From Tychonema sp. LEGE 06208 (lineage in GTDB: Bacteria; Cyanobacteriota; Cyanobacteriia; Cyanobacteriales; Microcoleaceae), in contig NZ_JADEWT010000047.1 in assembly GCF_015207505.1 (NCBI RefSeq), forward strand, positions 1 to 46,036: 46,036 nucleotides of DNA, in the 5' to 3' direction. The position numbers and the translations under genes are program-made. Position 1 is the first letter of the stretch. Every line of letters starts with the position of its first letter. Shown one piece after another: positions 28,445 through 45,863 of the stretch. The notes below the pieces were generated by a model that saw only the letters and a program-made list of their open reading frames with translations, was not told where the DNA came from and did not search any database.

Positions 28445-28461
28445 ATGAAATTACAATGAAA
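28445..28461 (-). promoter_or_regulatory. TTTCAT-N5-TTTCAT box upstream of the copper ATPase
   Basis: On the minus strand TTTCATTGTAATTTCAT, two half-sites 11 bases apart, followed eight bases later by GTGAAA. The order and spacing are the same as at 28906 and 30164. It is the presumed operator of an OmpR-type copper regulator. Confidence 0.7.
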
Positions 28462-28506
28462 TTGCTTTATTCCTAAAGTTAGAACTCGCTGGCGTTAGCC
28501 TTAATA

Positions 28507-28701
28507 TTAATCGACAGGATAGCCAGCAGATGCGATCGCTTTTCTAACCTCACTTTCCGATTTAGCGGTTTGAACCGTGACCGCTTTTGTCTTGAGATCC
28601 ACCTCAACAGTTGCCTCTGAATCCACTGTTTGGACTGCTTTTGTGATTGTAGTCGCACAAGCAGAACAAGCCATCTTGGGAACTTTTAATTGTAGAGTCA
28701 T
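28507..28701 (-). CDS. Atx1-type copper chaperone
   Basis: Cytosolic Cu(I) carrier of exactly 64 residues with one heavy-metal domain: MACSAC puts the two ligands at Cys12 and Cys15, as in Synechocystis ScAtx1. Position 61, a His in ScAtx1, is Tyr here (SAGYPVD), as in many other bacterial chaperones. ATG 28701 is preferred over 28782; the extra 27 residues have no family support, and GAGG lies upstream of 28701. The gene is upstream of the copper ATPase on the same strand, with the TTTCAT box lying between them. It should deliver copper to the ATPase metal domain and on to thylakoid proteins such as plastocyanin; this is inferred from the family. Confidence 0.9.
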   Translation of the reverse strand: MTLQLKVPKMACSACATTITKAVQTVDSEATVEVDLKTKAVTVQTAKSESEVRKAIASAGYPVD

Positions 28702-28905
28702 AATGTGAACCTCAGCAGAAACTACCCTGCTCAATAAATTAATTAACTTCATTGTAAACTCTCCTGTAAGGAGGAGAGTCAAGTCAATTTGAGATTTAAG
28801 ATTTGAGATTTATACCGATTCTACTTGTAGGGCTTAGCATTGCACGCCTTACATATTTATTTAAATAATGGCAATGTAATAATTATTTACAAATCTGAAT
28901 CAAAA

Positions 28906-28922
28906 TTTCATCCTAATTTCAT
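28906..28922 (+). promoter_or_regulatory. TTTCAT-N5-TTTCAT box upstream of the CopM-like gene
   Basis: TTTCATCCTAATTTCAT, half-sites 11 bases apart, then GTGAAAATATCAATATAAAT, which could include a -10 element (ATAAAT or similar). It ends 54 bases before the ATG at 28977, in the same orientation as the gene. Confidence 0.75.
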
Positions 28923-28976
28923 TTATCTGTGAAAATATCAATATAAATGGCAGTTTTAAGGATTTAACTAAAGTCT

Positions 28977-29675
28977 ATGAAATCAATCTCATTAAAAACA
29001 GGCTTTGCAGCGCTGACATTAACCGCCCTCACCAGCGGCGTGCTAGTAGCTTGTTCAAAAGCTCCTTCCAGCGAAACCCAAGCCCCAAATATTACGACAG
29101 CAACCCCTGCTAGCAGCCAGCAAAACATGGCACAAAACCACAACATGAGTGGCATGGATCACGGTATGTCAATGGATTTAGGCCCGGCTGATGCCGACTA
29201 CGATTTGCGATTTATTGATGGCATGAAAGTACACCATCAAGGTGCTGTAAACATGGCTAAAGAGGTGCTGGAAAAATCCAAACGTCCTGAAATGAAAAAA
29301 CTTGCTACTAATATAATCGCTGCTCAAAACCGCGAAATTAATCAAATGAAAGAGTGGCGAACAAATTGGTATCCCAAAGCCAGCAGTACGCCAATGGCTT
29401 ATCAAGCTCAAATGGGTCACATGATGGCAATGACTCCCGAACAGATGCAAAGTATGATGATGAGCATGGATTTAGGTGCTGCTGACGACCAATTTGATTT
29501 GCGGTTTCTGAATGCCATGATTCCCCACCACGAAGGAGCTTTGGTGATGGCCCAAGATGCCTTGAAGAAGTCAAAACGCCCGGAAATGAAGAAATTGTCT
29601 CAAGAGATTATAACTTCGCAAAAGCAAGAAATCGAACAAATGAAAGAGTGGCGACAAAATTGGTACAAACAGTAA
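28977..29675 (+). CDS. copM: Copper-binding DUF305 lipoprotein, CopM-like
   Basis: Exported protein of 232 residues. The signal ends in a lipobox (GVLVAC, Cys26), so it is probably a periplasmic lipoprotein. The mature part has two DUF305 units of about 65 residues with nearly the same sequence (DLRFIDGMKVHHQGAVNMA, and DLRFLNAMIPHHEGALVMA). Each is rich in His and Met; a Met/His-rich spacer (GHMMAMTPEQMQSMMMSM) lies between them. Synechocystis CopM is a DUF305 protein that binds copper and is controlled by CopRS. Here the same kind of protein has a TTTCAT box 54 bases upstream and is followed by RND efflux and two-component genes. The duplicated unit and the copper role are well supported; the symbol is by analogy. 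Confidence 0.85.
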   Translation: MKSISLKTGFAALTLTALTSGVLVACSKAPSSETQAPNITTATPASSQQNMAQNHNMSGMDHGMSMDLGPADADYDLRFIDGMKVHHQGAVNMAKEVLEKSKRPEMKKLATNIIAAQNREINQMKEWRTNWYPKASSTPMAYQAQMGHMMAMTPEQMQSMMMSMDLGAADDQFDLRFLNAMIPHHEGALVMAQDALKKSKRPEMKKLSQEIITSQKQEIEQMKEWRQNWYKQ

Positions 29676-29959
29676 TTTAGCTGGCTCAACCAAATGTGAC
29701 ACAAAGCCAGAAAATGAGTGACATGAATCACATTCTGTTAATTGTTCAGGAAACACTTGCATCACAACAGCCAGAAATTAAGCTAAGGAAATAGTAGCAC
29801 AAGGGTTAGGGATCAACCATAATATCGCTTCTTTACGACTATCAGCAGTTTTACTACTTCCTTTTATTGCATTTTTTACGTAAAATCACTGTAGACAATT
29901 CAACAGCAGTCATTATAAAGTATAACAGTCACTCAAAAAAAAATATAAAGGGGTATTGC

Positions 29960-30157
29960 ATGATGTTGCAGAGCTTGGAACTAAACACAACATCTCAATC
30001 AAATGCAGCAGTACAGGAGCTAGTGAACGGATGGACAAAAGAAATTAAATCGCAAGAATATCTGGCAACAGTGAAAGAAAATAAAAAGCACAATCCCTTG
30101 ACCTTAGGCAAAATTTATATTCGTATTTTAGAATCTGGAGGGCATCTGGGCTGCTGA
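29960..30157 (+). CDS. Unrecognised 65-residue protein ending GGHLGC
   Basis: ATG 29960 follows AAAGGGG by seven bases and the frame stays open for 65 codons; an earlier in-frame start at 29867 has no ribosome site. The protein has no signal peptide or membrane helix. It is polar and mostly helical (VQELVNGWTKEIKSQEYLAT, then ENKKHNPLTLGKIYIRILES) and ends with ESGGHLGC, where the only Cys is the last residue next to a His. I do not recognise the family. It lies between the CopM-like gene and the RND efflux operon, just before the next copper box, so a part in copper handling is likely. A small chaperone, or a precursor modified at its Cys tail, are both possible. Confidence 0.6.
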   Translation: MMLQSLELNTTSQSNAAVQELVNGWTKEIKSQEYLATVKENKKHNPLTLGKIYIRILESGGHLGC

Positions 30158-30163
30158 GGCTAA

Positions 30164-30180
30164 ATTTCATCCTAATTTCA
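30164..30180 (+). promoter_or_regulatory. TTTCAT-N5-TTTCAT box upstream of the RND efflux genes
   Basis: TTTCATCCTAATTTCAT, identical to the box at 28906, again followed by GTGAAA eight bases later. It begins seven bases after the stop of the 65-residue gene and lies 166 bases before the adaptor ATG at 30347. Confidence 0.75.
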
Positions 30181-30346
30181 TTTGGCAGTGAAAGACTAGG
30201 TTGAGGAGAGAAATTTTAGCTCTTGGTCATTGCTTAGCGGTCGTTTATTGAAAAAGGCTCATAAGTAGCTCCCGTTAATTCGGTTAACTTACTTTGGCAA
30301 AATACCAACCGCTAAGCCTTGGGCACTCAACCTGATTTCAAGGAAA

Positions 30347-32275
30347 ATGCCAACAATGATATTGCACAAATATTCTGAGTCTCAGGCAATTATTAGTACC
30401 TTTTCGGGAACTTTTTTCAGCCTAATGGTGCTAACTTCTCCCGCGGCTGTTTTCGCCCACGCGGGACACGGAAATGAATTTAACCAAAGCGGCGAAACCT
30501 CTCAAGCTCCTGCTGCTATTTCTGTCGATGCCGTCACAGCAAAACGGTTAGGAATTAAAGTCTCCCCAGCGGTTCACCAGCGACTAGATATAGGCATCAA
30601 AACCACGGGAGAAATTGAAACTTTGCCCAACCAAAAGGTAGAAGTGACGGCTTCGGTTGCTGGCAAAGTGGTAGAGTTGCTAGTTAAGCCTGGGGACAAA
30701 GTATCAAAAGATCAACCGGTTGCTGTTTTGTCGAGTTCAGAATTAGGACAGTTGCGGGTTGAATCTCTCTCAAAACGTGCCGAAGCTGAGGCGGATTTGC
30801 AGCAAGCGCAAGGTGATTTGAAACTAGCTGCAGAAAATTACGATCGCCAAATTCAAATATCCGCAGCGGAAATCGCCCAAGCCAAAACTCAACTGACAGC
30901 AGCAACTCAGCAGTACCACCGAGAGCAAGAATTAGTAAACAAGCGTTCGGTTGTGAAAGTTGCTAAAGAAAACTATCAGCGTCAAGTTGAAATAGCGCAA
31001 GCAGAAATAGCCCAAGCTGAAACAGAATTAACTGTGGCAAAAGAACAGTTCGATCGCGATCGAGAATTAGTAGCCGCAGGGGCGATCGCGCGGCGGACAA
31101 TGCTGGAATCGCAAGCGCACTTCGCCCAAGCCAAAGCGGCTGTTGCTAAGGCAAAAAGCCGTCCCGAAGTTATCAAAGCGGAAACCGAAATCAAACAAGC
31201 CGAAGTAGACCTGCCAATGCGGGAATTGCGCGATTCTCAAGGCCGAGCAGCAGAAGCACAAGCTCAACTTACCAAGGCTTTGAGCCGCCGGGAAGTGTTG
31301 GAAGCGGAGAACAAAGTCAAACGCGCCAAAACTGCCGTGGAAGTCGCTCAGTCGCGGATTCGCTTGGCTGATGCAGCCTATCAAGCGCGGCTCCAACAAT
31401 TAGGAACTATTGCCAATGACAAAGGATTTGTTACTATTATCACTCCGATTTCTGGCACGGTAGCCGATCGCGCTATCACCCCAGGAGAGTCCGTAAGCGC
31501 TGAAAAACCGTTGATGACTCTCTTAAATGACAGCCGCGTTTTTGCCACAGCCAATATTTACGAAAAAGACCTAAATCAGGTAAAACAGGGCCAGGAAGTC
31601 AGGGTGAAAGTTGCTAATTTGGGCGATCGCATTTTTACGGGAAAAGTTAGCTTCATTGGATCGGTTGTAGGAGAGGAAACACGGGTAGTTCCAGTGAAAG
31701 CCGAACTAAACAACACTGAAGGAGAGTTAAAGCCGGGGATGTTTGCAGAGTTGGACATCTTAACCGACAAAACAGCAACAGATGTTTTGGCAATTCCGGC
31801 TGCTGCTTTAGTTGAAGCCAACGGCAAAAAAATGGTTTACATTCAAAATGGCAATGCCTTTCAGTCAGTTGAAGTTGAACTCGGTCAAACTTCTGGGGAT
31901 TTAGTAGAAATTAAAAGCGGTTTGTTTGAGGGAGATTTGATAGTAACGCAGCGCGCGCCTCAACTTTACGCACAATCTTTGCGGGGCGGAAGCCAACCCT
32001 CAAAAACCGGGGAAAAGCAAGAGGCAACTCCGAAAGTAACAGCAGCTAATTTGAATAATTTACCCGTGCCGTTGTGGGCGGGAGTTGGGGGAGGAATTGC
32101 GCTCGCATCCCTAACTTTTGCCGCCGGAGTCTTTTGGGGAAATCGGCGCCAATTCCCAGTAATAGCAGATGCTGCAAATAATAGTTTTTCCATCTCTCAA
32201 CCAGCCATTGACGATGAATTGTTACACAATGACAACCATCACGTTAAAAATCAACAGGCAGAAGTCAAAAATTAA
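30347..32275 (+). CDS. copB: RND efflux periplasmic adaptor (CusB/CopB type)
   Basis: Membrane-fusion protein of 642 residues that would link the inner-membrane pump to an outer-membrane channel. It has a signal-like N terminus followed by AGHGNEF and a lipoyl half (VEVTASVAGKVVELLVKPGDKV). A very long coiled coil (about 135-350) is built of repeated AEIAQAxxxL heptads. The second lipoyl/barrel region includes TIITPISGTVADRAITPGE and GDRIFTGKVSFIG. A C-terminal membrane helix (LPVPLWAGVGGGIALASLTF) and a His/Asn tail end the protein. At 642 residues it is clearly longer than CusB, mainly through the enlarged coiled coil and the C-terminal helix. AAGGA precedes the ATG at 30347. It is the first gene after the copper box and is followed by the pump gene. 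Confidence 0.9.
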   Translation: MPTMILHKYSESQAIISTFSGTFFSLMVLTSPAAVFAHAGHGNEFNQSGETSQAPAAISVDAVTAKRLGIKVSPAVHQRLDIGIKTTGEIETLPNQKVEVTASVAGKVVELLVKPGDKVSKDQPVAVLSSSELGQLRVESLSKRAEAEADLQQAQGDLKLAAENYDRQIQISAAEIAQAKTQLTAATQQYHREQELVNKRSVVKVAKENYQRQVEIAQAEIAQAETELTVAKEQFDRDRELVAAGAIARRTMLESQAHFAQAKAAVAKAKSRPEVIKAETEIKQAEVDLPMRELRDSQGRAAEAQAQLTKALSRREVLEAENKVKRAKTAVEVAQSRIRLADAAYQARLQQLGTIANDKGFVTIITPISGTVADRAITPGESVSAEKPLMTLLNDSRVFATANIYEKDLNQVKQGQEVRVKVANLGDRIFTGKVSFIGSVVGEETRVVPVKAELNNTEGELKPGMFAELDILTDKTATDVLAIPAAALVEANGKKMVYIQNGNAFQSVEVELGQTSGDLVEIKSGLFEGDLIVTQRAPQLYAQSLRGGSQPSKTGEKQEATPKVTAANLNNLPVPLWAGVGGGIALASLTFAAGVFWGNRRQFPVIADAANNSFSISQPAIDDELLHNDNHHVKNQQAEVKN

Positions 32276-32375
32276 AAGTAAAAGATTGCTATATTTGAGA
32301 AATTTATTTTTCACAACTCCGCCTCTACAAACCAATACGCTTGGGTTAAGGCTGATTACCCTTAACACCCTTAAA

Positions 32376-32409
32376 AAAGGGGAAGAGATTTCTTGAAGTG
32401 CCCCTTTTC
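32376..32409. repeat. Hairpin between adaptor and pump genes
   Basis: AAAAGGGG (32376) pairs with CCCCTTTT (32402-32409) around 18 bases. A second small inverted repeat (GTTAAGG/CCCTTAAC, about 32346-32366) precedes it. Both lie in the 213-base gap of the efflux operon and could act on mRNA stability or adaptor/pump ratio. Confidence 0.45.
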
Positions 32410-32488
32410 AAGGGAGATTTAGGGGAATTTCCAGCTTATAAATAGCGCTAACTGAGCCTTATTGCTCTATAAACTCAAAGCTAATAAA

Positions 32489-35400
32489 ATGTTCAGCACA
32501 ATTCTCAGATTGGTAATTAACCGCCGCTGGCTAGTCGTTCTCGCCACCATTATTATTAGTCTTTGGACATTATATATCCTCCCGAAAATGTCCCTCGATG
32601 TCTTCCCGCCTTTCGCACCTCCGCAAGTCGAAATTCAGACAGAAGCACCGGGTCTCGCACCGGAAGAAATCGAGTCTTTAGTAACACTGCCGATCGAAAG
32701 TGCGATTAACGGAACACCGGGAGTAACAGCAGTGCGATCGTCTTCCGCCGTGGGCCTTTCTGCCATTAAAGTCATCTTTGATTGGGGAACAGAAATATAT
32801 CAAGCACGCCAGTTGATAACTGAAAGGTTGCAGCAAGCTCAAAGCAAACTCCCGGCTGGGGTAGAAACACCGCAAATTTCTCCTACAACTTCTCCTGTCG
32901 GCACTGTTATTTCCTATGCTTTCACATCAGAAACTACTCCGTTAATGGAAGTGCGCCGCCTCGTAGATTGGCAAGTAACAAATCGCCTTTTGGCAGTGAA
33001 TGGTGTTGCTCAAGTTATCGCTTACGGAGGTCAACAACGGCAGTATCAAGTATTAGTTAATCCCGCTAAACTACAAGCTTTTAATGTGTCGTTACAGCAA
33101 GTGGCAGAAGCGGCAGCCGCTGCGAATGTTAACGCGCCTGGGGGGTATTTAATTACGCCCGATCGCGAAACGTTAATTCGAGGCGTGGGGCGGATTGAGT
33201 CTGTGGCAGATTTGCAGCAATCTGCGATCGCATCTCGCCACGGAACGCCAGTCATAATTGGTGATGTTGCTGATGTCAAGATTGGTGGTGCGATCGAGCG
33301 GGGAAACGGTAGTTTTAACGGCAAAAAAGCTGTGATTGTGATGGTAAACAGACAGCCAATTGCTGATACTCCCACGGTAACGAAGGCGGTTGAAGCAGCA
33401 ATGGCTGAAGTGCAGCAATCTCTACCCAAGGATATTAAGGTAACAGTGACTTTCCGGCAGGAAGAATATATCAAATCTTCGGTGGAAAATGTGCGATCGG
33501 CTTTAGTGGAAGGCAGTATTATTGTCACCATTATTCTCATCCCGTTTTTGATGAATTGGCGGACTCTGACGGTGGTTTTGCTCGATTTCTTCCTAACTTG
33601 GCTGTTCGGGCTGCTGGCGATGTATTGGCTGGGACTGGGATTGAATACGATGACTTTGGGCGGATTATCGGTGGCGATCGGAACTGCGATCGATGATGCT
33701 ATTGTCTATGCAGAAAATACCTACCGCAACTTGAGGGAAAATACGTCTTCTCTGCATCCGCGCCCGGTGATGGATGTGATTTTTGACGGCAGTCAAGAGG
33801 TGCGCGATTCTTTAATTGGAGCAACTGTAATTGGGATTGTGGTGTTTTCTCCAATTTTTACTTTGCCCGGTGTAGAAGGGCGAATTTTTACCCCTATGGG
33901 TATTACTTATTTGGTTGTTGTGGTGATTTCTAGTCTAGAATCGCTGTTAATTTCTCCCGCCCTTTGTGCTATTTTGTTGCCCAACAAATCCATGAGTGTG
34001 AAAGAACCTTGGTTGCCAAGATTTTGCAAGCATATCTATCATTTTTGGATCCAGTTTTCAATGCGATATTCGTCGATAATTTTAGCTTTAGCTGCTGCTA
34101 GTATGGTGGCTGCCTTAGTTATTTTACCTTCCTTTGGACGGGTATTTTTGCCGGAGTTTCAGGAGCAAACTTTGGTGAATACTATTCTACTTTATCCTGG
34201 TGTTTCTTTGGAGACGACGGATAGCGCGGCTTTTGCTATGGAAGATGCACTTAAGGATGATAGCAGGTTTGAATACGTGCAAGTGCGATCGGGCAGAGCT
34301 CCGGGCGATGCTGATGCTGCTGGTGTCAATTTAGCTCACATCGATATTGGTTTGAGCGAGGAAGGGATGAAAAATAGGTCGAAAACTTTGGAGTCGCTGC
34401 GGCAAGAATTTGCTAAATTGCCGGGAGTTGCACCAAATATCGGCGGCTTTATTTCTCACCGGATGGATGAGGTTTTGTCTGGTGTCAGGAGTCAGATTGC
34501 TGTCAAAATCTTTGGTCCGGATTTGAATCAACTTCGCAGCCTCGGCGCTCAAGTTGAAGCGCAAATGAAAACAGTTAAGGGAATTGTAGATTTGCAACTA
34601 GAACCGCAAGTGCCGGTGCAGCAAATTCAAATTAAGTTTAACCGCCAAGCTGCCGGTAGATATGGTTTGAAAATTGGAGAACTTTCGGAAATCATTGAAA
34701 CAGCTTTAAATGGCAAAGTTGTATCACAAGTTTTGGAGGTGCAGCAAACTTTTGACTTAGTTGTTTGGTTGCACCTCGAAGCCAGAAATAACCTCGAAAC
34801 TATTCAGAATTTGTTGGTTGATACTCCGAATGGTAATAAAATTCCCCTGGCGCAAGTTGCGACTGTTACATACGGTACGGGCCCAAATACGATTAACCGC
34901 GAGAATGTTTCTCGGTTGATTGTGGTGGCGGCTAATGCTAAAGGTAGGGATTTGCGATCGGTTGTGAATGAAATTCAAGCTAAAGTAAAACGAGAGGTAC
35001 AGTTACCGTTTAGCTATTTTATCCAGTACGGCGGTCAATTTGAAGCGGAACAAAGGGCTTCCCAAAATATTATCGTATTTAGCGCGATCGCCTTTTTGGT
35101 AATTACCGTATTGATGTACTTGTCTGTCAAGTCAATTGCTTCAACTGCTACGATCATGATTAATTTGCCGATCGGCTTAGTTGGAGGAGTGATTGCTGTA
35201 GCTGTGACTGGCGGTATAATTTCCGTAGCTTCCTTGGTTGGCTTTGTCACATTATTCGGCGTTGCTACCCGTAACGGCTTGCTGTTAGTAGACAACTACA
35301 ACTCTAAATTTGCTGAAGGAATGCCCTTTCAAGAAGCTATTATTAAAGGCTCGATGGAACGGCTCAACGCCATCTTGATGACTGCTTTAACTTCAGCCTT

Positions 35401-35584
35401 GGGTTTAGCACCTTTAGTTTTAGAAGGCGGCCCCGGCAAAGAAATTTTACAACCTTTGTCTATCGTAGTTTTAGGAGGATTGTTTACTTCTACTGCCTTA
35501 ACTCTGTTAGTTTTGCCAGCTTTGTACGCTCAATTTAGAAACTTCTTAGCACCTAAAACGACTAATCTCATCTCCGGTAAATAG
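32489..35584 (+). CDS. RND heavy-metal efflux permease (CusA/CzcA family)
   Basis: Inner-membrane proton-driven pump of 1031 residues, twelve helices. The first helix (WLVVLATIIISLWTLYILP) is followed by the porter region SLDVFPPFAPPQVEIQTEAP. The fourth-helix motif SVAIGTAIDDAIVYAEN carries the charged residues of the proton relay in metal-type RND pumps. The C-terminal half repeats the fold (ATRNGLLLVDNYN is in the tenth-helix region). ATG 32489 is preferred over TTG 32462 because homologues begin at MF-x-ILRLVINRRW; no good ribosome site was found. It follows the adaptor on the same strand and is the equivalent of Synechocystis CopA (RND) in copBAC. Copper as substrate is inferred from the operator and neighbours. 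No outer-membrane channel gene is present. Confidence 0.92.
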   Translation: MFSTILRLVINRRWLVVLATIIISLWTLYILPKMSLDVFPPFAPPQVEIQTEAPGLAPEEIESLVTLPIESAINGTPGVTAVRSSSAVGLSAIKVIFDWGTEIYQARQLITERLQQAQSKLPAGVETPQISPTTSPVGTVISYAFTSETTPLMEVRRLVDWQVTNRLLAVNGVAQVIAYGGQQRQYQVLVNPAKLQAFNVSLQQVAEAAAAANVNAPGGYLITPDRETLIRGVGRIESVADLQQSAIASRHGTPVIIGDVADVKIGGAIERGNGSFNGKKAVIVMVNRQPIADTPTVTKAVEAAMAEVQQSLPKDIKVTVTFRQEEYIKSSVENVRSALVEGSIIVTIILIPFLMNWRTLTVVLLDFFLTWLFGLLAMYWLGLGLNTMTLGGLSVAIGTAIDDAIVYAENTYRNLRENTSSLHPRPVMDVIFDGSQEVRDSLIGATVIGIVVFSPIFTLPGVEGRIFTPMGITYLVVVVISSLESLLISPALCAILLPNKSMSVKEPWLPRFCKHIYHFWIQFSMRYSSIILALAAASMVAALVILPSFGRVFLPEFQEQTLVNTILLYPGVSLETTDSAAFAMEDALKDDSRFEYVQVRSGRAPGDADAAGVNLAHIDIGLSEEGMKNRSKTLESLRQEFAKLPGVAPNIGGFISHRMDEVLSGVRSQIAVKIFGPDLNQLRSLGAQVEAQMKTVKGIVDLQLEPQVPVQQIQIKFNRQAAGRYGLKIGELSEIIETALNGKVVSQVLEVQQTFDLVVWLHLEARNNLETIQNLLVDTPNGNKIPLAQVATVTYGTGPNTINRENVSRLIVVAANAKGRDLRSVVNEIQAKVKREVQLPFSYFIQYGGQFEAEQRASQNIIVFSAIAFLVITVLMYLSVKSIASTATIMINLPIGLVGGVIAVAVTGGIISVASLVGFVTLFGVATRNGLLLVDNYNSKFAEGMPFQEAIIKGSMERLNAILMTALTSALGLAPLVLEGGPGKEILQPLSIVVLGGLFTSTALTLLVLPALYAQFRNFLAPKTTNLISGK

Positions 35585-35654: not shown

Positions 35655-35727
35655 GAACTAATCTTATTGCGATCGATCGACCAGGCACGATATCATACTG
35701 TTGAGAAAGATATCTCGATATAAAAAA

Positions 35728-36405
35728 ATGAGAATTTTGTTAGTTGAAGACGATCTTCGCATTGTCAAACCCCTTGCAGAAGACTTAAGGCATCAAAACC
35801 ACGTCGTAGATATAGCGACTGACGGGCTAGAGGGTTGGGAATATGCGCGATCGGTCAATTACGACCTAATTTTGTTAGATTTAATGCTGCCCAAATTAGA
35901 TGGTATATCACTGTGTAAGCGTCTGCGTGCCGATCGCTCTCACGTTCTCATCTTGATGCTGACAGCACGCGATACCACCTTAGATAGAGTCATTGGACTC
36001 GATGCAGGAGCTGATGATTACTTAGTTAAGCCCTTTGAATTAGAAGAATTAGCCGCCCGAATTAGAGCTTTATCTCGGAGAATTCCAGAAACCAAACCCC
36101 TGATTCTAACCCACGGTCATTTGCAACTCAATCCCACTAGCTGCACCGTTACTTATGCAGGAAACGCTTTATCTTTAACTCCCAAAGAGTATATGATATT
36201 AGAATGTTTCTTAAACAATCCCACTCAAGTTTTGACACGCTCCGCCATTTTAGATAAATTGTGGAATTTTGATAAAGCTTCAGGAGAAGGAACAGTCAAA
36301 ACTCACATCACAAATTTGCGTAGCAAGCTCAAAGCAGCCGGAAGTTCAGAAAATTTTATCGAAACAGTTTACGGCATTGGTTATCGACTCAGCAGCCATC
36401 ACTAA
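35728..36405 (+). CDS. copR: OmpR-family response regulator, CopR-like
   Basis: DNA-binding regulator of 225 residues. The receiver domain (about 1-115) has VEDDLRI with the acidic pocket, phospho-acceptor Asp51 (LILLDLMLPKLDG), a Thr in LTARDTT and the Lys in DDYLVKPFE. The winged-helix output domain (about 130-222) has LTPKEYMILE and the recognition-helix region KTHITNLRSKL. ATG 35728 is used rather than TTG 35701, since receivers start MRILLVEDD. The sensor kinase gene follows, and the efflux operon lies 143 bases upstream. OmpR-type regulators bind direct repeats with an 11-base period, which is what the TTTCAT boxes here show. No such box lies in front of this gene itself. The CopR name is by analogy to Synechocystis. 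Confidence 0.85.
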   Translation: MRILLVEDDLRIVKPLAEDLRHQNHVVDIATDGLEGWEYARSVNYDLILLDLMLPKLDGISLCKRLRADRSHVLILMLTARDTTLDRVIGLDAGADDYLVKPFELEELAARIRALSRRIPETKPLILTHGHLQLNPTSCTVTYAGNALSLTPKEYMILECFLNNPTQVLTRSAILDKLWNFDKASGEGTVKTHITNLRSKLKAAGSSENFIETVYGIGYRLSSHH

Positions 36406-36446
36406 CAACCCTAAAAAAACAGCACTCTTTTCTTTTCAATTACTTC

Positions 36447-36484
36447 AAAAAATCTGCGTTGTATCTGTGTTGCATCTGCGGTTT
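36447..36484 (-). repeat. Dispersed decamer repeat (AACCGCAGATG... complement)
   Basis: On the minus strand it reads AACCGCAGATGCAACACAG then ATACAACGCAGATTTTTT, the same family as the copies in and near the oxoprolinase gene (6513, 8213, 8684). It separates the regulator and kinase genes by 175 bases. Confidence 0.6.
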
Positions 36485-36580
36485 CTATATCAAAGATTTA
36501 TGCAATCTTGTTCGAGATCAAATATATTGAAGATCTCCCAATATATTTGAAATTTTTATAGCTAATAATTTGTCCTCATT

Positions 36581-37828
36581 ATGTTTGAAAAAATTCGCTC
36601 TCGTTTGCTATTATCTTACCTGCTTGTACTGGCATCAATATTAAGTATTTTTGCAATTGGCGTTAGACTAATCTTCGCTCGCAGTCTCACCGACCAGCTA
36701 ACAGACAAACTGACAGTTTTAGGAGAAGGAGCCTCTGCCAATACAGAATGGGAAAACGGACGTATAAGATTTGATACTGATTTTAGCGCGCAAACTATAA
36801 TTGATAACAATCAAGGTTTGGAATTATTTGACACTAAAGGAAATACGATAATTCAACAAGGTAGGTTTGTGCTTGCCATACCATTATCATTCAGCGAGAC
36901 AGTACAATTACCAACAGCAAAAAATCGAATTCAAGGAATTACCTTACCAATAATTGAGAGGGGAAATGGTAAACTAATCGGCTATATAAGAGTAAGCCAA
37001 TCCCTCGATGAAATTGACGAAACCTTAAATAAATTCAATTTAGGGCTAGGGAGTGGAATCCTGATAGCCTTGATTTTTAGCGGTGTTGGCGGAGTGATAT
37101 TGACTCGTTTAGCGATGCAGCCAATTGAGGATAGTTTTAAAAGTTTAAAGCAGTTTACCGCCGATGCTTCTCACGAATTTCGCAGCCCCTTGATGGCTAT
37201 AAAAAGTAATCTAGCCGTAGCACTAAAATACCCAGAGGGGATGAGAGAGTTAGATGCAGAAAAGTTTCAGGCTATTGCTAGTGCGGCGAATCAAATGACG
37301 CAGCTAACCGAAGATTTGCTGCTGTTAGCAAGAACCGATAAAGTGGCCAGCATCCATAAAGCTTCTGTCAATTTAACTGTAGTTTTGGAGAATTTGGTTC
37401 AGCTTTATCAGTCTCGGGCCGAACTCAAACAAATTAATTTAAAATCTCAACTAACAGAAAACATTAATTTAGTAGGTGATTCAAACCAACTAACGCGACT
37501 GTTTACCAATTTGATTCAAAATGCACTTCACTACACGCCATCTGGAGGAACAGTAGAAATTACAGTCAACCGTCTCGTTTCCTATTGCATTGTCAGCGTG
37601 CGAGATACGGGTGTGGGAATTGCACCGGAGCAGATTAAGCTGATTTTTGAGCGGTTTTGGCGAGCAGATGAATCTCGTTCCTATTGGAATGGAGGTTCTG
37701 GTTTGGGATTAGCAATCGCCCAAACCATTGCCCAAAATCACGGTGGCTCAATTACCGTCACCAGTAAGCTCGGAGTTGGCAGTTGTTTCACTGTAAAATT
37801 GCCAGATCACTTTTTTAAAATAAGTTAA
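36581..37828 (+). CDS. copS: Sensor histidine kinase, CopS-like
   Basis: Membrane kinase of 415 residues. Its first helix (LLLSYLLVLASILSIFAIGV, about 8-27) and second helix (GILIALIFSGVGGVILTRL, about 155-175) enclose a sensor domain of about 125 residues in the periplasm. That domain has no Cys or His cluster that I can see, so metal sensing is not shown by motif. The H box is ADASHEFRSPL (His is the phospho-acceptor), followed by an N box (LIQNALHYTPSGG), the DTGVGI box and GGSGLGLAI. There is no separate HAMP domain beyond a short linker. It is paired with the regulator gene upstream. Copper sensing is inferred from the neighbours, as for Synechocystis CopS. Confidence 0.85.
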   Translation: MFEKIRSRLLLSYLLVLASILSIFAIGVRLIFARSLTDQLTDKLTVLGEGASANTEWENGRIRFDTDFSAQTIIDNNQGLELFDTKGNTIIQQGRFVLAIPLSFSETVQLPTAKNRIQGITLPIIERGNGKLIGYIRVSQSLDEIDETLNKFNLGLGSGILIALIFSGVGGVILTRLAMQPIEDSFKSLKQFTADASHEFRSPLMAIKSNLAVALKYPEGMRELDAEKFQAIASAANQMTQLTEDLLLLARTDKVASIHKASVNLTVVLENLVQLYQSRAELKQINLKSQLTENINLVGDSNQLTRLFTNLIQNALHYTPSGGTVEITVNRLVSYCIVSVRDTGVGIAPEQIKLIFERFWRADESRSYWNGGSGLGLAIAQTIAQNHGGSITVTSKLGVGSCFTVKLPDHFFKIS

Positions 37829-37920
37829 AATACATCGCTTTATTGATGTTTTATGAATATTAAAAACTATTTAAAAATAGTGAGATAAATTGTACATGAT
37901 TTGAACTTTGTTGAGTTGGA

Positions 37921-38610
37921 TTGATTGTGTTACGAAAAATATATGAATTTTGGTTGCAGCATATCAACCCACGCTTAAATACTTTAATTGTGACAATTGG
38001 TGTAGTTGGACTTACCAGTTGTCTGCTAATCAGTTTTATTTTAGCGTGGCTATTTGAAGAAATATTAGAACGAGAAGCTTTTGCTTTTGATACTTCTTGG
38101 CTGTACTGGCTGCACGGATATGCAAATCCGAGTCTAGATGCTGTGATGCTAACAATTACTCAGCTTGCTGATGCCCGTGTAGTTATAGTGATTGTGGCAG
38201 TCACGCTAGGAATTCTATGGTGGCAGCATCACCGCGAGGAAGCTAAATTTTTTGCTCTTGCTTGTTTGGGAGCCTTGATTCTAAATACTGGATTGAAGTT
38301 GTTTTTTACGAAACCTCGTCCACATCTTTTTCCGAGCTTAATTGCAGAAACATCCTTTAGTTTTCCGAGCGGTCATGCTTTAGGAAGTTTTGTAATGTAT
38401 GGGTTTCTAGCTTACCTGCTTTCCGCTCACTTTCCGAAGTTTTCCAAATTAATATATACTTTAGCTGTTTTGACGATCGCTCTTATTGGCCTGAGTCGGA
38501 TGTATATAGGAGTACACTGGCCAACAGATATCATTGGTGGCTACGGAATCGGCTATCTTTGGCTGACGCTTTGCATCGCAATGCTGAGGTTACAAACCAG
38601 ACAAGTCTAG
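37921..38610 (+). CDS. PAP2-superfamily membrane phosphatase
   Basis: Integral membrane protein of about 229 residues with about five helices. The three phosphatase motifs are in order: LFFTKPRPHLFP (K-x6-RP type), SFPSGHALGS (PSGH) and SRMYIGVHWPTDIIGG (SR-x5-H-x3-D). Such enzymes remove phosphate from phosphatidic acid, undecaprenyl diphosphate or similar lipids. The start may be TTG 37921 or GTG 37927. It lies 92 bases downstream of the kinase gene on the same strand and may be read from the same transcript. A link with copper is not evident; similar genes often occur beside metal two-component systems as envelope-stress functions. Confidence 0.85.
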   Translation: MIVLRKIYEFWLQHINPRLNTLIVTIGVVGLTSCLLISFILAWLFEEILEREAFAFDTSWLYWLHGYANPSLDAVMLTITQLADARVVIVIVAVTLGILWWQHHREEAKFFALACLGALILNTGLKLFFTKPRPHLFPSLIAETSFSFPSGHALGSFVMYGFLAYLLSAHFPKFSKLIYTLAVLTIALIGLSRMYIGVHWPTDIIGGYGIGYLWLTLCIAMLRLQTRQV

Positions 38611-39440: not shown

Positions 39441-39461
39441 CGTTAAATCCCTTCAATGTGA

Positions 39462-39509: not shown

Positions 39510-39530
39510 ATCTGTCTAAAAGTTAAGAAA

Positions 39531-39547
39531 TTTCATCTTGATTTCAT
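39531..39547 (+). promoter_or_regulatory. TTTCAT-N5-TTTCAT box upstream of an RND remnant
   Basis: TTTCATCTTGATTTCAT, half-sites 11 bases apart, then GGGAGTCAAC where GTGAAA is seen at other sites. The next intact rightward gene is the lipoprotein at 39878, 330 bases away. The decayed RND piece at 39647 lies between them. Confidence 0.65.
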
Positions 39548-39646
39548 TTTTGGGAGTCAACCTAGGTTAAGTGGCGATCGAACATGAATGAGGTGCTGTC
39601 GCGGTGAGGAGTGCGATCGCACTTAAGATAGCAAGTATCAAGCGTG

Positions 39647-39877: not shown

Positions 39878-40360
39878 ATGAAAACGCTCAAGTCAAGTTT
39901 AATTATTCTAGGCAGTGTCGGATTGCTCTTTTTGGGAGCTTGCGGTAAAGCCGACCAAACAAGCGATACAAATACTACTCCACCACCACCACCTGCGGCC
40001 TCTCAACCTGCGTCTTCCGCTCCCGCCACGACTTCTGCTGCGAAAGGAGCTAACGGGGGTCAAGTTGTCAATTCTGGTGCTTACCATTTAGAGTTTGTAC
40101 CTGAAAAAGAAGCTACGGGAACTCACTTAGATTTGTATCTGCAAAAAGGCGATAAAAAGGAACCAGTTCCTGACGCAAAAGTGACGGCTCAAGTGCAGTT
40201 GCAGAATGGAAAGCAGCAAACCCTAGCTCTCAAATACGATCCAGAGGGCAAACATTACGCTGTTGTGTTTCCCGGCAAAGAACCGGGTCAATATCCTGTG
40301 AAGGTGAATGCGGATATTAACGGAGAAAAAGTAGACGGTCGTTTTACATTCACTCAGTAG
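39878..40360 (+). CDS. Small exported lipoprotein with a C-terminal beta domain
   Basis: Protein of 160 residues with a lipoprotein signal (IILGSVGLLFLGAC, lipidated Cys22). A Pro/Ala/Thr/Ser-rich linker follows (about 30-60), then a domain of about 100 residues beginning NGGQVVNSGAYHLEFVPE and ending VKVNADINGEKVDGRFTF. GGxxxxxGxYHxEFV segments occur in proteins beside metal RND systems (as in some CzcB-like adaptors), so a periplasmic metal-handling role is plausible. There is one copper box 330 bases upstream. No Met- or Cys-rich copper site is visible; the single His of the YHLEF motif and the acidic residues are the only candidates. The gene ends 29 bases before a strong inverted repeat. 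Confidence 0.65.
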   Translation: MKTLKSSLIILGSVGLLFLGACGKADQTSDTNTTPPPPPAASQPASSAPATTSAAKGANGGQVVNSGAYHLEFVPEKEATGTHLDLYLQKGDKKEPVPDAKVTAQVQLQNGKQQTLALKYDPEGKHYAVVFPGKEPGQYPVKVNADINGEKVDGRFTFTQ

Positions 40361-40388
40361 TTTGACAGTCCTGGAGGCACAGATAGCC

Positions 40389-40455: not shown

Positions 40456-40766
40456 TTGGTATAAATGCGTAAATCCTGCTTGCATCTAATGCCCCCATTA
40501 CTATTGGAGGAGGAGCCATGCAAAATGCTAATATTCCTCACCTTATTCAAAGATTTTGTGCTTTCCTCTCATTTTACAAAAGTCAAAATTCCCGTTTATT
40601 GTAGCACGAACCTCCCGCCCAGCTAGTGTTAACTTAAGCCAGAAAGACCGCCAAGGACTTTTGCTATTAGACAGGGGTTGAAACCCTTCTTTAATAGCGA
40701 ATTTGACCTGTTTGCTAATACCAACAGTGCCGCCCGTTGGGCTACCTGCCGTTAAAAAGATCAAAT
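40456..40766. other. Intergenic region without a convincing gene
   Basis: Open on the minus strand in part (40543-40770), but that product has no ribosome site or recognisable features. It contains a short palindrome AGGGGTTGAAACCCTT (about 40671) that resembles the end of a CRISPR repeat, but there is only one copy. Confidence 0.5.
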
Positions 40767-42239: not shown

Positions 42240-42320
42240 AAACAATCCTTAGTTAATTTGAATTGGGTTTAAATCTCACTAATTTTAAGTTTCTAGATAG
42301 ATGCACCCTGTTGTTTGGAC

Positions 42321-43277
42321 TTAATTTCCTATTTCGTTACTCCTGTTTTTTGATTTGATTGGAAAAAATACTCTACCGCTCAAACTTTGGAGATAAATCC
42401 CACCCACGGTGATTAGAAAGACGAAATAAGCAAAGCCCTGCACCAAATAAAGTTTGTCCGTGTAGCCAAACATCGCGCTCAGCAACAAGCCGGGAAACTT
42501 TTCTTGGGGAAGCACTTTCGAGGTATTCCACACCATCGGCCCGAGAATGCAAGAGTGCTCTTTGGCAAATCTTTCGTAATAGAAACACATCCCTGCTGAC
42601 TCGCGATTGGCTTGCGATAAAATATTCACAGCGCTGTCAAATAATCCCAAAGTAGATACCACTAAACCCGCTACAATAAAGAGCAATAAAATGCCCATAT
42701 ACTTAAAAAATAGGCGGATATTAATTTTTACTCCCCATTTAAACAGCAGCACGCCAATTCCGGCGGCTGAAAGTATTCCTCCCAAAGCGCCGATGGCTGG
42801 AAGAAGGCCTTGTTGAAACTTAGCGACGACAAACAAAACGGTTTCAAATCCTTCGCGCAAAACGGCAATCAAAATTAAACTAAATACGCCCCAGCCTGCA
42901 TGAGATTTGTCCGTTAAGGCAGCACTTACTGCGCCTTCGACTTCGGCTTTCATAAATCGCGCTTGCTTGGTCATCCAGAGCAGCATCCAGCTCAGCATTG
43001 CTATTGCTAAAACTCCAAAACTTGCCTCTAGCAGAGATTCCATAATTGGTGCAAAGGGTTGATTGGATGCGGACAAAATTTGAATTGTCCAGCCAAACAG
43101 TACACCTATCAAAGCGCTGGCAATAAGTCCGACGGCGACACCGCCATAAACCCAAGGACTTAAATAACTTTGTCCCGATTTTTTGAGGCAAGCTAGAACG
43201 ATTCCAACAACTAAGGCGGCTTCTACTCCTTCGCGGAGGGTAATTACAAATGTGGGTAATGCTTCGCTGAAATTCAT
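42321..43277 (-). CDS. Ftr1-family iron permease
   Basis: Membrane permease of 318 residues with about seven helices. The two REGxE motifs of the Ftr1/EfeU family are present: FVITLREGVEAALVVG (residues 10-25) and IAVLREGFETVLFVV (about 134-148). Their acidic residues bind the iron ion during transport. In yeast Ftr1 works only with a copper ferroxidase. Here a Tat-exported multicopper oxidase lies two genes upstream on the same strand, with an exported His-containing lipoprotein between. ATG 43277 is preferred over the longer frame start at 43325 because the extra residues are repeat-encoded and MNFSEALPTFVITLREG matches the family. Two tandem heptamer/nonamer arrays lie directly upstream, in the leader or promoter. 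Confidence 0.93.
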   Translation of the reverse strand: MNFSEALPTFVITLREGVEAALVVGIVLACLKKSGQSYLSPWVYGGVAVGLIASALIGVLFGWTIQILSASNQPFAPIMESLLEASFGVLAIAMLSWMLLWMTKQARFMKAEVEGAVSAALTDKSHAGWGVFSLILIAVLREGFETVLFVVAKFQQGLLPAIGALGGILSAAGIGVLLFKWGVKINIRLFFKYMGILLLFIVAGLVVSTLGLFDSAVNILSQANRESAGMCFYYERFAKEHSCILGPMVWNTSKVLPQEKFPGLLLSAMFGYTDKLYLVQGFAYFVFLITVGGIYLQSLSGRVFFPIKSKNRSNEIGN

Positions 43278-43331
43278 TTTTTTAATTAGAAGGAATAAGG
43301 AAGAAGGAAGTTCGGCAACGAGCAATGTACG

Positions 43332-43376
43332 GGATGTAACGGATGTAACGGATGTAACGGATGTAACGGATGTAAG
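43332..43376. repeat. Nonamer GGATGTAAC x5
   Basis: Four perfect GGATGTAAC units and a fifth ending AAG, 55 bases upstream of the Ftr1 start. The unit is unrelated to the neighbouring heptamer. Confidence 0.9.
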
Positions 43377-43382
43377 TCCGTC

Positions 43383-43438
43383 GGAAGAAGGAAGAGGGAA
43401 GAGGGAAGAGGGAAGAGGGAAGAGGGAAGAGGGAAGAA
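43383..43438. repeat. Heptamer GGAAGAG x6 flanked by GGAAGAA
   Basis: Eight perfectly spaced 7-bp units: GGAAGAA, six GGAAGAG, GGAAGAA. This is an STRR-type array; GGAAGAA also occurs as its complement at 23485-23512. Confidence 0.9.
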
Positions 43439-43505
43439 GGCTTTAGTTATCCGGCGACTTAAGGAAGAAGGAAAAAGACTTACTTAATTTCGATAATATT
43501 TGAAA

Positions 43506-43541
43506 GGTTTGTAGTGCGGACTTAAGTCCGCACTACAAACC
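43506..43541. terminator. Perfect 36-bp palindrome with GGACTTAAGTCC core
   Basis: GGTTTGTAGTGCGGACTT and its exact complement, no spacer. It lies four bases after the stop codon of the leftward lipoprotein gene and is followed on that strand by TTTCAAA, so it may serve as terminator. It is the most regular member of the repeat family at 21759, 35627 and 38869. Confidence 0.65.
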
Positions 43542-43545
43542 GTTT

Positions 43546-44571
43546 TTAAGAGGCGGGTTTGAGCACTTTTTGGCTGTCGTTTTCGATCGCCTTAATGAGC
43601 ACGGCCACTTGTTCGGTGGTTTTTACCGGGGCTGGTGGCGCGATCGCAGTTGGCCAATTTGCCTTAAGTTCAGTCATGTTAGCAACAATTGCTTTGTCGA
43701 TATCCGGGTTAGTTTTAGCCACTTGAGCGGCAATATTTTGGTACAGGGTTTCCGCGTACATGACGAAACCCCGCGAATCTTGGTATTCAATAACTGCGGA
43801 AATTTTGCCGTTAGCAACTGCCGCTCCGTATTCGGAATTAGCTGTATCTAGCAAGCCGTTAATCACTTGCAGCACGAATTTCGGATCTTGGCGCTGCGCT
43901 TCGGGAAGGGCGGCAATTGCTCCATCTACAGCTTGCATTGATGTGTTAAATTCTGCATTTACTTCAGCCGGATCTTTTGCACCCGCTTTAATTAAATCCT
44001 GCAATTTAATTAAAGTTGTCTTGAATTCGGGAACTTTTCGCTCGTTTAGCTGGTCTTCCACATCGGCATAAATTTCTTCTACCGGGTGACCGATGTGCGG
44101 TTCGGCTTGGTCTGGTTTGCCTGCATCCAAGAGTTCTTTTGCTACCAAAAGATGCCCTTTCATCAAGCCAAGTTTAGTCATGTAGTCTACATCTTTAGCT
44201 TCCCCTGTGAGGACAACATCTTCAATAGTTACCATGTCTTTAATTTGGTCAAATTGGGCTTGATTAATGACATTTTTAGATACCAATTCTTCGGTTTTTC
44301 CGTAGGGGCGGCTGGCTTGAATTTTGTTAGAAAGTGCCGGAATTCCTAACTTGGCTTCGAGTTTATCTAACTCCGAAAGAATGGCGGTATTAATGTTAAT
44401 ACCGGGTTTGCCGCCGTGATTCATGCTGTGGCCGCTTGTTGCTGCGGTAGTAGCAGTGGGGGTGGGTGAGGCGGTGCTGCTGGTGTTGGTGGGGGTGGAA
44501 ACGCAACCAGTCAAAGCAACGAGGATGGCTGTAGCAGCGGCTGTCGGTAATTGACGAAAGGATGGTAACAT
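43546..44571 (-). CDS. Exported helix-hairpin-helix lipoprotein of an iron/copper locus
   Basis: Protein of 341 residues with a lipoprotein signal (ILVALTGC, Cys23) and a Thr/Ser/Pro linker containing SGHSMNHGG. A ComEA-like helix-hairpin-helix domain (about 55-120) follows, with ININTAILSELDKLEAKLGI and PYGKTEELVSKNVINQAQFD. The rest (about 125-341) is a helical domain with GHLLVAKELLDAGK and EPHIGHPVEEIYADVE, whose spaced His/Glu residues could bind metal. It is encoded between a multicopper oxidase and an Ftr1 permease, in the place held by EfeO/EfeM-type iron-binding proteins in other systems. I do not recognise the helical domain by name. A periplasmic iron-binding role is inferred from context; a DNA-binding role for the HhH part seems unlikely outside the cell unless in competence. 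Confidence 0.7.
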   Translation of the reverse strand: MLPSFRQLPTAAATAILVALTGCVSTPTNTSSTASPTPTATTAATSGHSMNHGGKPGININTAILSELDKLEAKLGIPALSNKIQASRPYGKTEELVSKNVINQAQFDQIKDMVTIEDVVLTGEAKDVDYMTKLGLMKGHLLVAKELLDAGKPDQAEPHIGHPVEEIYADVEDQLNERKVPEFKTTLIKLQDLIKAGAKDPAEVNAEFNTSMQAVDGAIAALPEAQRQDPKFVLQVINGLLDTANSEYGAAVANGKISAVIEYQDSRGFVMYAETLYQNIAAQVAKTNPDIDKAIVANMTELKANWPTAIAPPAPVKTTEQVAVLIKAIENDSQKVLKPAS

Positions 44572-44733
44572 GGCAGTTGATGATTTTTGGGTTGGGTGCA
44601 GTTTGACTCGCCTGTTATCAAGAAAGTTTCTTAATTATTTGCGAGTTAATGATTCTACCTATTTAGGATAAATTTTGGTAGATAATTTAAGACTTTCTTA
44701 ACTAAAATCGGCGCAGATCGATCGCGATTTGGG

Positions 44734-45738
44734 TTAAGCGATGACTTCAAATAAACCCATGCAGCCTGCTTCGGCGATCGCATCTTGATGGGGATGAAAC
44801 ATATATTTTCCGCCGTAGCTGTAGCTAAATTCTAAAATATGTCGTTCAGCTACTCCCATTGTAATGACATCTGTTTTCTCGCTGGGTGTTAAAGTCATTC
44901 CCGTGCGATATAGGTCAAAAAAATTGGCGTGCAGGTGAAAAGTCACGGCTGATTCATACTCAATCATGTTCATTACATACAGCCGGATAAGCTGATTTTT
45001 GTAAATCTGGATCGGGTTTTTCATATAATAATTGGGTATTCCGTTAAAAGCGTAAAGCTCATTTTTTTGTTTGTCGTTTACGTCGTAACCTCCCATGATT
45101 AACAGAATTTCGTCTGCTGGTGGGCGAGGTTTTGGCGGATCGACAATGAACATTCCATAAAGTCCTTTACCGATGTGGCGGGTCACTGGGGCAATGTGAC
45201 AGTGATATAGATGCACGCCATAGGGAAGTGCGTCGAACTCATAGATAAACGCAGAGCCGTTTCGGATCGGTTTAACGCCGTCCATTTCTACGGGATGAAC
45301 GCCGTGGAAGTGCAGCGAATGAGAATGTCCGGCTTTGTTAGAAAAAATGACCCGGATGCGATCGCCCTCAGTTGCTCTCAATGTCGGCCCGGGCACGCGA
45401 TTGTTCACATTCCAAGTGTTGAAACTAACGGCGCTGTTAAGTTGGACGATCGATGTGTTCGCTTCCATGCGAAATTCCCGCACCGTGCGCCCGTTTTCCC
45501 GCGTCACCGTGCCGTAATCAAAATCCCGCGCAATTTGCATCGGATTGATCGTGCTAGCTGCGACTGGATCGGCAGCCATTGGCGGTATTCTCGGTGCAGC
45601 CGATCGCTTTTGGGTAAAATTTTGCAGTGCGATCGCGCCGGACGCTACCCCAGCACCAGCTATTCCTAGCTGTAGGAGTTGGCGGCGAGTCCAGTACCCC
45701 GGCTTTTTGCTCGCGGAGCGATCGGATAAGTCTGCCAT
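44734..45738 (-). CDS. Tat-exported two-domain multicopper oxidase
   Basis: Protein of 334 residues with a twin-arginine signal (TRRQLLQLGIAGAGVASGAI), so it folds with its copper in the cytoplasm and is then exported. Domain 1 has HSLHFHGVH (copper ligands) and VHLYHCHIAPVTRHIGKGLYGMF, whose Cys-His-Met pattern makes a type 1 site. Domain 2 has TFHLHANFF and MFHPHQDAIAEAGCMGLFEV. The layout is that of two-domain laccase/nitrite-reductase-like oxidases. Ferroxidase or cuprous oxidase activity would fit its neighbours, an Ftr1 permease downstream and copper genes beside. A TTTCAT box lies 109-125 bases upstream (45847-45863), but in the opposite orientation. Family is firm; the true substrate is inferred. 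Confidence 0.9.
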   Translation of the reverse strand: MADLSDRSASKKPGYWTRRQLLQLGIAGAGVASGAIALQNFTQKRSAAPRIPPMAADPVAASTINPMQIARDFDYGTVTRENGRTVREFRMEANTSIVQLNSAVSFNTWNVNNRVPGPTLRATEGDRIRVIFSNKAGHSHSLHFHGVHPVEMDGVKPIRNGSAFIYEFDALPYGVHLYHCHIAPVTRHIGKGLYGMFIVDPPKPRPPADEILLIMGGYDVNDKQKNELYAFNGIPNYYMKNPIQIYKNQLIRLYVMNMIEYESAVTFHLHANFFDLYRTGMTLTPSEKTDVITMGVAERHILEFSYSYGGKYMFHPHQDAIAEAGCMGLFEVIA

Positions 45739-45846
45739 ACTTCTTGATAATTATTCTCAAAACTTGGGCTGCATCCGAGTATAAGACATTTTTAGCTTAT
45801 TGTCAATTTATGTCAACTGTTATTTTTTTATGCGAACTCAAGAAAT

Positions 45847-45863
45847 TTCATAACGATTTCATT
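45847..45863 (+). promoter_or_regulatory. TTTCAT-N5-TTTCAT box upstream of the multicopper oxidase
   Basis: TTTCATAACGATTTCAT, half-sites 11 bases apart, then GTGTGTCAAC, similar to the site at 39531. It points away from the multicopper oxidase gene, so it may serve a rightward gene beyond the window, or both. Confidence 0.6.

Follow-up and report, generated by a model that had tools for sequence, protein, structure and literature searches.

Which regulator controls the copper genes that lie together on a 46,036-nucleotide stretch of the Tychonema sp. LEGE 06208 genome (contig NZ_JADEWT010000047.1, positions 1 to 46,036; hereafter the window), and through which promoter element? The initial annotation of this DNA proposed that five copies of a direct repeat, TTTCAT-N5-TTTCAT, mark a copper regulon controlled by an OmpR-type regulator, with a CopRS-like pair of the same block (regulator at 35728-36405) as the likely reader. 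Our sequence comparisons indicated that the five repeats are CopR boxes, putative binding sites of a known kind of copper regulon. It is very probable that this regulon is read by a CopR encoded on another contig of the same genome, C10, and not by the regulator of the window.

Five CopR boxes in the window

Searching both strands of the window for TTTCATNNNNNTTTCAT returned exactly five exact matches, against a mean of 0.02 and a maximum of 1 in dinucleotide shuffles; none of 100 shuffles reached five. With up to two mismatches, 18 matches were found against 11.89 expected and 7 of 100 shuffles reached 18, so the exact form alone stands out. The five annotated copies are real on this count, but two begin one base away from the positions first given, at 30165 instead of 30164 and at 45846 instead of 45847.

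Box 1 (28445..28461, minus strand, spacer TGTAA) lies 154 bp upstream of the start of a Cu-ATPase gene, and its equivalent is found at the same place in a relative locus (L031). On the plus strand, box 2 (28906..28922, spacer CCTAA) lies 54 bp upstream of copM and box 3 (30165..30181, spacer CCTAA) precedes an RND operon. Box 4 (39531..39547, plus strand, spacer CTTGA) is 330 bp upstream of a gene for a CopC-like lipoprotein, an arrangement also seen in L034, and box 5 (45846..45862, plus strand, spacer AACGA) would be the promoter of copRS past the window end. A longer form, TTTCATnnTAATTTCAT followed by GTGAAA, was found at 28445, 28906 and 30165 as annotated, except that GTGAAA begins at the seventh base and not the eighth. 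These three sites do face the Cu-ATPase, DUF305 (CopM-like) and RND genes in gene orientation.

The repeat matches the Synechocystis copM and copBAC promoters. On pSYSX, TTTCATCCTGATTTCAT is found upstream of copM and TTTCATCTTGGTTTCAT upstream of copBAC; both are of the form TTTCAT-N5-TTTCAT (spacers CCTGA and CTTGG) and have the period of 11 seen in the window. The same kinds of genes stand behind the sites (copM, copB, copA, copC and copRS), and the copM, cusB and cusA genes of relatives also carry them, which bears out the annotation of a copper regulon of CopR type within the OmpR family. The CopR-binding sequence of Synechocystis sp. PCC 6803 (copMRS and copBAC promoters, pSYSX) was reportedly described by Giner-Lamia et al. 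2012. The putative CopR-binding sequence printed in the accessible part of PMC4182526 is TTCATN4-5TTCAT, whereas in both the pSYSX sequence and the window N6 separates the TTCAT cores, 1-2 bases more. Tychonema also differs from Synechocystis in having five sites in the window, one of them before a P-type ATPase gene, compared with two cop promoters on pSYSX, and in that its copR lies apart from copM.

A -10 element in fixed phase with the repeat

With the first T of the site as position 1, the downstream bases kept among 70 non-redundant copper-type sites are T25 (0.86), G26 (0.86), A29 (0.96) and T33 (0.89). They form an extended -10 element (TGN-NANNNT) whose hexamer is separated from the second half-site by ten bases. 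TG at 25-26, A29 and T33 occurred together in 47 of 80 non-redundant sites with a C-N-N-R-A spacer, and the TG..A...T pattern at 19 other offsets in at most 3 of the 80 sites each. A single offset is prominent, as a PhoB-like promoter with a fixed distance from repeat to -10 predicts. In the window, A29 and T33 are kept in all five sites and TG in four. The element reads TG A AATGCT at box 1 (28429..28437, minus strand), TG A AAATAT at box 2 (28930..28938, plus), TG A AAGACT at box 3 (30189..30197, plus), AG T CAACCT at box 4 (39555..39563, plus; TG degenerate, A and T kept) and TG T CAACTT at box 5 (45870..45878, plus), where it points out of the window. The annotated GTGAAA overlaps this element; its interpretation as a third, inverted half-site was ruled out by the kept T25, G26, A29 and T33, which follow the extended -10 pattern. 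Both Synechocystis cop promoters have the form TGN-NANNCT at the same offset. The Synechocystis copM transcription start given in the accessible part of PMC4890671, 26 nt upstream of the start codon, falls 9 bases beyond the end of that -10; the same source describes a 72-nt copM promoter with two direct repeats likely involved in regulation.

Taken together, site and -10 element look like a complete PhoB-like activated promoter. At pho boxes, PhoB binds as an OmpR-family dimer to 11-bp direct repeats that end about 10 bp before the -10. CopR-box promoters have the same repeat period, regulator family and distance, but a different half-site, and their -10 is of the extended TGN type. As the layout equals that of pho boxes, the dimer may take the place of a -35 element, and this analysis suggests that CopR does so.

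A CopR orthologue on contig C10

The genome encodes a CopR/CopS orthologous pair on C10. Its regulator (G000:C10:21127-21822) is 66% identical to Synechocystis CopR with a near-identical recognition helix, and its kinase is 52% identical to CopS. The window regulator is only 46% identical to CopR and its recognition helix, TVKTHITNLRSKL, differs from the SNVVAAQVRLLRRKL of Synechocystis CopR, so it is not the CopR orthologue. Here and below, recognition-helix and wing residues are those that we take to correspond to the ones in OmpR-family structures.

Co-occurrence was examined in 195 genomes of the order, without correction for kinship among them; site counts and E-value exponents were transcribed by hand for this tally, and the genome totals agree with the three source tallies. 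Of 91 genomes that match CopR (E<=1e-86) but not the window-type regulator (E<=1e-87), 72 contain copper-type sites. The different helix and the persistence of sites in genomes that lack it both indicate that the window regulator is probably not the reader, contrary to what was first proposed. The C10 regulator is the likely one, and its binding to the boxes is predicted.

Box 5 and the end of the window

The initial annotation linked the fifth site to the multicopper oxidase gene or to a gene beyond the window. The -10 element points away from the oxidase, and comparison with relatives favours the second option, a CopR-type gene. In six relatives an equivalent of box 5 lies 82-144 bp upstream of a CopR-type gene, in the order oxidase, site, copR (L031, L032, L041, L054, L187 and L190); in L187 the oxidase is 95% and the regulator 88% identical. 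In L039 the oxidase and the site stand at a contig end. The C10 regulator gene therefore probably adjoins the window end, and from this synteny we infer that box 5 is the copRS promoter. Sites thus precede copM, copBAC-type and copRS genes, the copRS case in Tychonema itself depending on synteny.

A 124-bp repeat with 8-bp terminal inverted repeats (45913..46036, plus strand) follows box 5 and ends the contig. It is identical to the end of C10. The overlap alone was not accepted as joining the two contigs, because this multi-copy repeat matches the genome at 40 places, eight of the matches being perfect over the full length. The element resembles a miniature inverted-repeat transposable element, is flanked by TA on both sides where the flanks are readable, and its copies end several contigs; if the two contigs join, it would sit in the copR leader.

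Occurrence of the site in the genome and in relatives

The 6.55-Mb genome of Tychonema contains ten exact sites, against one for a reversed control pattern. Five are in the window, two form an inverted pair before an MntC-type gene, and three are elsewhere (C11:1992, C33:28175 and C33:46363), near neither copper nor manganese genes according to lists of open reading frames (ORFs) and two Pfam scans. The idea that a genome scan would hit copper genes only did not hold, since the hexamer pair, taken without regard to its spacer, is found at manganese genes as well, and these three sites lie near neither kind of gene. One of the three, G000:C11:1992-2008 (L001), has the copper-like spacer GCTGA and an extended -10 in phase, and lies upstream of an ORF for a TylF-type methyltransferase; the 3 kb read there revealed no copper gene.

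We compared 32 loci around CusA relatives, 31 cyanobacterial by title and one from Nitrosomonas. Exact sites were found in 27 of them and recur upstream of copM, cusB, cusA and the lipoprotein gene. For 17 copM-like genes the sequence could be followed from the gene start; an exact site precedes 16 of them, at 67-184 bp, and for nine the distance from site start to gene start is exactly 67 bp. Identity across 13 copM promoters is 97% in the spacer and 35-47% in the flanks; the 100% identity of the half-sites in this set reflects its selection for the exact site. Across the 195 genomes, sites with a C-N-N-R-A spacer numbered 336, against 13 control matches. Of the 137 genomes that match CopR (E<=1e-75), 108 contain such a site, as do 12 of the 58 that do not match.

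Copper and manganese places were then read individually; they were our own choice among the first matches listed, and a subset of the 195 genomes supplied most of them. Twenty copper-spacer places outside the big clusters gave 22 sites, 21 of them with C-N-N-R-A. The phased -10 was present in 11 of the 22 (10 of the 21), and 20 neighbouring genes scanned comprised 5 DUF305 genes, 4 efflux adaptors or channels (two of them weak matches) and otherwise other families or none. In 20 places with neither the copper nor the manganese type of spacer, the phased -10 was absent from all 21 sites and no copper or manganese family was found among the 10 neighbouring genes scanned. An ORF longer than 450 bp contains 1 of the 22 copper-set sites and 10 of the 21 neither-spacer sites.

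A copper-type site precedes a pyridoxal-phosphate enzyme gene in G015:C16 (L140), and a cysteine-synthase-family gene lies in the plasmid metal cluster of PCC 7112 (L086, 25109-26185). The response to copper may include the supply of sulfur.

Manganese genes with the same half-site

The inverted pair before the MntC-type gene of Tychonema has the spacers AATCG and AATCC. Among the matches listed, all 17 places with an A-W-T-Y-N spacer (19 sites) were inspected, and 16 were at MntC-type (7), Nramp (3) or GDT1 (6, one about 315 bp off) genes; the remaining place lies between a multicopper oxidase gene and a UPF0060 gene. A prediction was written beforehand for a second set of 20 fresh places, picked by us among the matches listed; they come from several families, some with more than one place, and one is from the genome's own family, although the written prediction named families that had not yet been covered. 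All 20 were as predicted: 11 at ZnuA/MntC genes, 7 at GDT1 genes and 2 at an ABC ATPase gene only. The MntC label is given by family and neighbours, as PF01297 covers zinc- as well as manganese-binding proteins. The A-W-T-Y-N pattern occurs 161 times in the 195 genomes (our sum), against 21 control matches, and single hits of this A/T-rich pattern therefore carry a real share of chance. Within these limits, C-N-N-R-A spacers seem to mark copper genes and A-W-T-Y-N spacers MntC-type, Nramp and GDT1 genes.

Unlike CopR boxes, the manganese-type sites have an A/T spacer, lack the phased -10 and are often paired. The phased -10 was found in none of 18 non-redundant sites, and 3 of the 18 have the pattern three bases closer. 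In 17 of 18 places with a neighbouring ZnuA/MntC or GDT1 gene, the repeat has the reverse orientation to that gene. Tandem pairs lie 34-35 bp apart (for example G085:C5:61194/61228 and G037:C133:93036/93071) and inverted pairs 37-46 bp apart (G000, G153 and G015). In L099 (G043:C51, 4571-5730), two manganese-type sites 45 bp apart lie between a multicopper oxidase gene and a UPF0060 gene, 12 bp before the former and 14 bp before the latter; this oxidase is possibly manganese-linked.

These sites recall the control of mntCAB by ManS/ManR in Synechocystis, which the accessible part of PMC7020235 reports as repression, not activation. The half-site is the same, and a candidate ManR in Tychonema has nearly the recognition helix of CopR. 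This candidate (C170:37254-37925) is 50% identical to Synechocystis CopR. JGI calls its relatives 'manganese sensing response regulator' and NCBI calls them 'RppA', a name that NCBI also gives to Synechocystis CopR; the candidate's identity as ManR, sought in this genome (G000) only, rests on these names.

CopR and ManR: a possible distinction by spacer

The helix is otherwise nearly common to the CopR and ManR types, SNV[VL]AAQ[VI]RLLRRK in the commonest forms. One wing position is Lys or Arg in 120 of 120 ManR-type relatives (of 7131 hits, the 120 most similar to one query), mostly within H-T-V-Y-G-K/R-G-Y, and basic in none of 32 CopR-type sequences. The 32 were drawn from the loci compared here, which partly overlap, so that the C10 protein is present more than once; neither set is a random sample. 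From this pattern we infer that the helix would read TTTCAT and the wing sense the spacer. It is reasonably likely, on these alignments, that CopR and ManR use the same helix on the same halves and that the five-base spacer, sensed by the wing through the minor groove, selects the regulator. As only the copper form has the extended -10 in phase, such a spacer code would also predict use by an activator or by a repressor. In the literature searched we found no publication on a copper/manganese distinction by spacer; the primary CopR paper lay outside that search, and we do not claim that the distinction is unpublished. The CopR-type copper regulon is already known, and the spacer distinction may be the new part.

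Weighing the evidence

Several observations weigh against a CopR-box regulon read from C10. The spacer class is fuzzy, as boxes 1 (TGTAA) and 5 (AACGA) fall outside C-N-N-R-A, and box 4 lacks the TG of the extended -10. The phased -10 also occurs in 23 of 61 non-redundant sites with spacers of neither class; most of these 23 have near-copper spacers (TCTAA, GCTGA, CTTGG) and many come from the fetched copper clusters. No exact site was found in five of the 32 CusA-relative loci. Of the 115 genomes whose CopR match is strong (E<=1e-86), 22 lack a C-N-N-R-A site, and the 12 of 58 genomes mentioned above carry one with no CopR match. The CopR-type gene is elsewhere, behind the lipoprotein gene, in L024, L025, L028, L033, L042, L045 and L051, and behind CusA and the lipoprotein or another small gene in L188, L189 and L191 (L188 and L189 have the layouts of L028 and L025). 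With an overlap that is a repeat, the join of window and C10 rests on synteny.

Other explanations of the sites fare less well. That they are chance repeats of A/T-rich intergenic DNA, as the weak enrichment of the two-mismatch form in the window might suggest, can practically be dismissed given five exact sites against 0.02 expected and the exact site kept before 16 of 17 copM-like genes. The hexamer pair might instead be a general site of several OmpR-type regulators, uninformative on copper by itself: it also stands upstream of MntC-type, Nramp and GDT1 genes, three of the ten genomic sites are near genes of neither metal, and other spacers can be followed by the phased -10. We find this very unlikely, because the sets separate once spacer and -10 are considered (phased -10 in 47 of 80 C-N-N-R-A sites, 0 of 18 manganese-type sites) and the 20 other-spacer places show neither the element nor a metal family among the genes scanned. 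In addition, the accessible part of PMC4182526, which places a CopR-like sequence also upstream of mntC and between the nrs operons, reports no differential expression of mntC or the nrs genes in the strains used, the copR mutant included.

A reading of the five sites by the 35728-36405 regulator, alone or together with CopR, would fit the location of its gene, which belongs to the block and stands in line behind that for CusA, and the mean of 5.17 sites in CopR-positive genomes (E<=1e-86) that have a window-type regulator (n=24), compared with 1.91 in those that do not (n=91). Against it stand the divergent helix and the 72 of those 91 genomes that have copper-type sites all the same. Moreover, only 1 of 3 genomes with the window type and no CopR match has a site, a window-type regulator at >=84% identity is present in only 3 of the 32 loci (L023, L034 and L040), and 18 of the 32 hold only a relative at <=49%; we consider this reading distinctly unlikely. 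Slightly less improbable, yet still unlikely, is a second role for the 45846 site in controlling the opposite-strand genes for the multicopper oxidase and the iron permease (44734-45738 and 42321-43325). The site stands upstream of the oxidase gene, 107 bp from its start, and six relatives share this arrangement, but the repeat orientation and the -10, which was sought in the copR direction only, point to copR; orientation and synteny thus disfavour oxidase control. A CopR-box regulon read by the C10 regulator is the explanation that we retain.

Genes around the boxes

On the minus strand are genes for a CopA-like heavy-metal P-type ATPase, upstream of which box 1 lies (26035..28290; Pfam E1-E2_ATPase, HMA), a cupredoxin-domain protein overlapping its end (25506..26117; Cupredoxin_1) and a CopZ-like HMA-domain copper chaperone (28507..28782; HMA; start codon uncertain). 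The plus strand encodes the CopM-like protein (28977..29675; DUF305), a CusB/CopB-like membrane-fusion protein (30347..32275; HlyD_D23) and a CusA/CopA-like RND pump (32462..35584; ACR_tran), which is 96% identical in the closest loci (Microcoleus and Lyngbya sp. CCAP 1446/10). They are followed on the same strand by the OmpR-family response regulator of different type, probably not the box reader (35701..36405, ATG at 35728), and its partner sensor histidine kinase (36581..37828; HisKA, HATPase_c). This two-component pair and a PAP2 gene (35701-38610) are kept at 90-98% in Lyngbya CCAP 1446/10 and L034; the regulator itself is found at 95% in G153, and cyanobacterial plasmids, those of Nostoc type among them, encode it at 74-80%.

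The CopC-like lipoprotein gene (39878..40360, plus strand) gave no match in the Pfam scan; its product is 43% identical over 140 aligned positions to that of the gene after the CusA gene of Synechocystis copBAC. At the right end, a run identified by Pfam scan encodes an FTR1 iron permease, an HHH protein and a multicopper oxidase (42321-45738). It resembles a copper-dependent iron uptake unit and is kept beside a CopR-type gene in six relatives.

A model for copper control and its implications

In the model that we propose, a rise in copper would lead CopS to phosphorylate CopR, a dimer of which would bind across the -35 region, on the two TTTCAT halves in head-to-tail arrangement. Like PhoB at pho boxes, bound CopR would recruit RNA polymerase to a weak extended -10 located ten bases beyond the second half. 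This would turn on the genes for the Cu-ATPase, CopM, the CusBA pump and the CopC-like lipoprotein and, through box 5, copRS. At manganese transport genes, the ManR candidate would read the TTTCAT halves of upstream sites whose spacer is A/T and which lack a phased -10.

If this is true, the ManR regulon would extend to Nramp and to half-size GDT1/UPF0016 (Hmx-like) manganese transporters. The accessible part of PMC11649195 describes two UPF0016 proteins of Synechocystis, Hmx1/2, as constitutive manganese importers whose transcripts are unchanged under manganese excess; ManR control of the short GDT1 genes, if these are Hmx-like, would differ from Synechocystis, and manganese control of Nramp and half-size GDT1 genes is a prediction that the sources consulted do not mention. 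For copper, the box with its phased -10 would provide a readable promoter signature in non-model cyanobacteria, and the likely regulator is located. As naturally occurring relatives that share a half-site, CopR and ManR would allow discrimination by the spacer to be approached through single substitutions.

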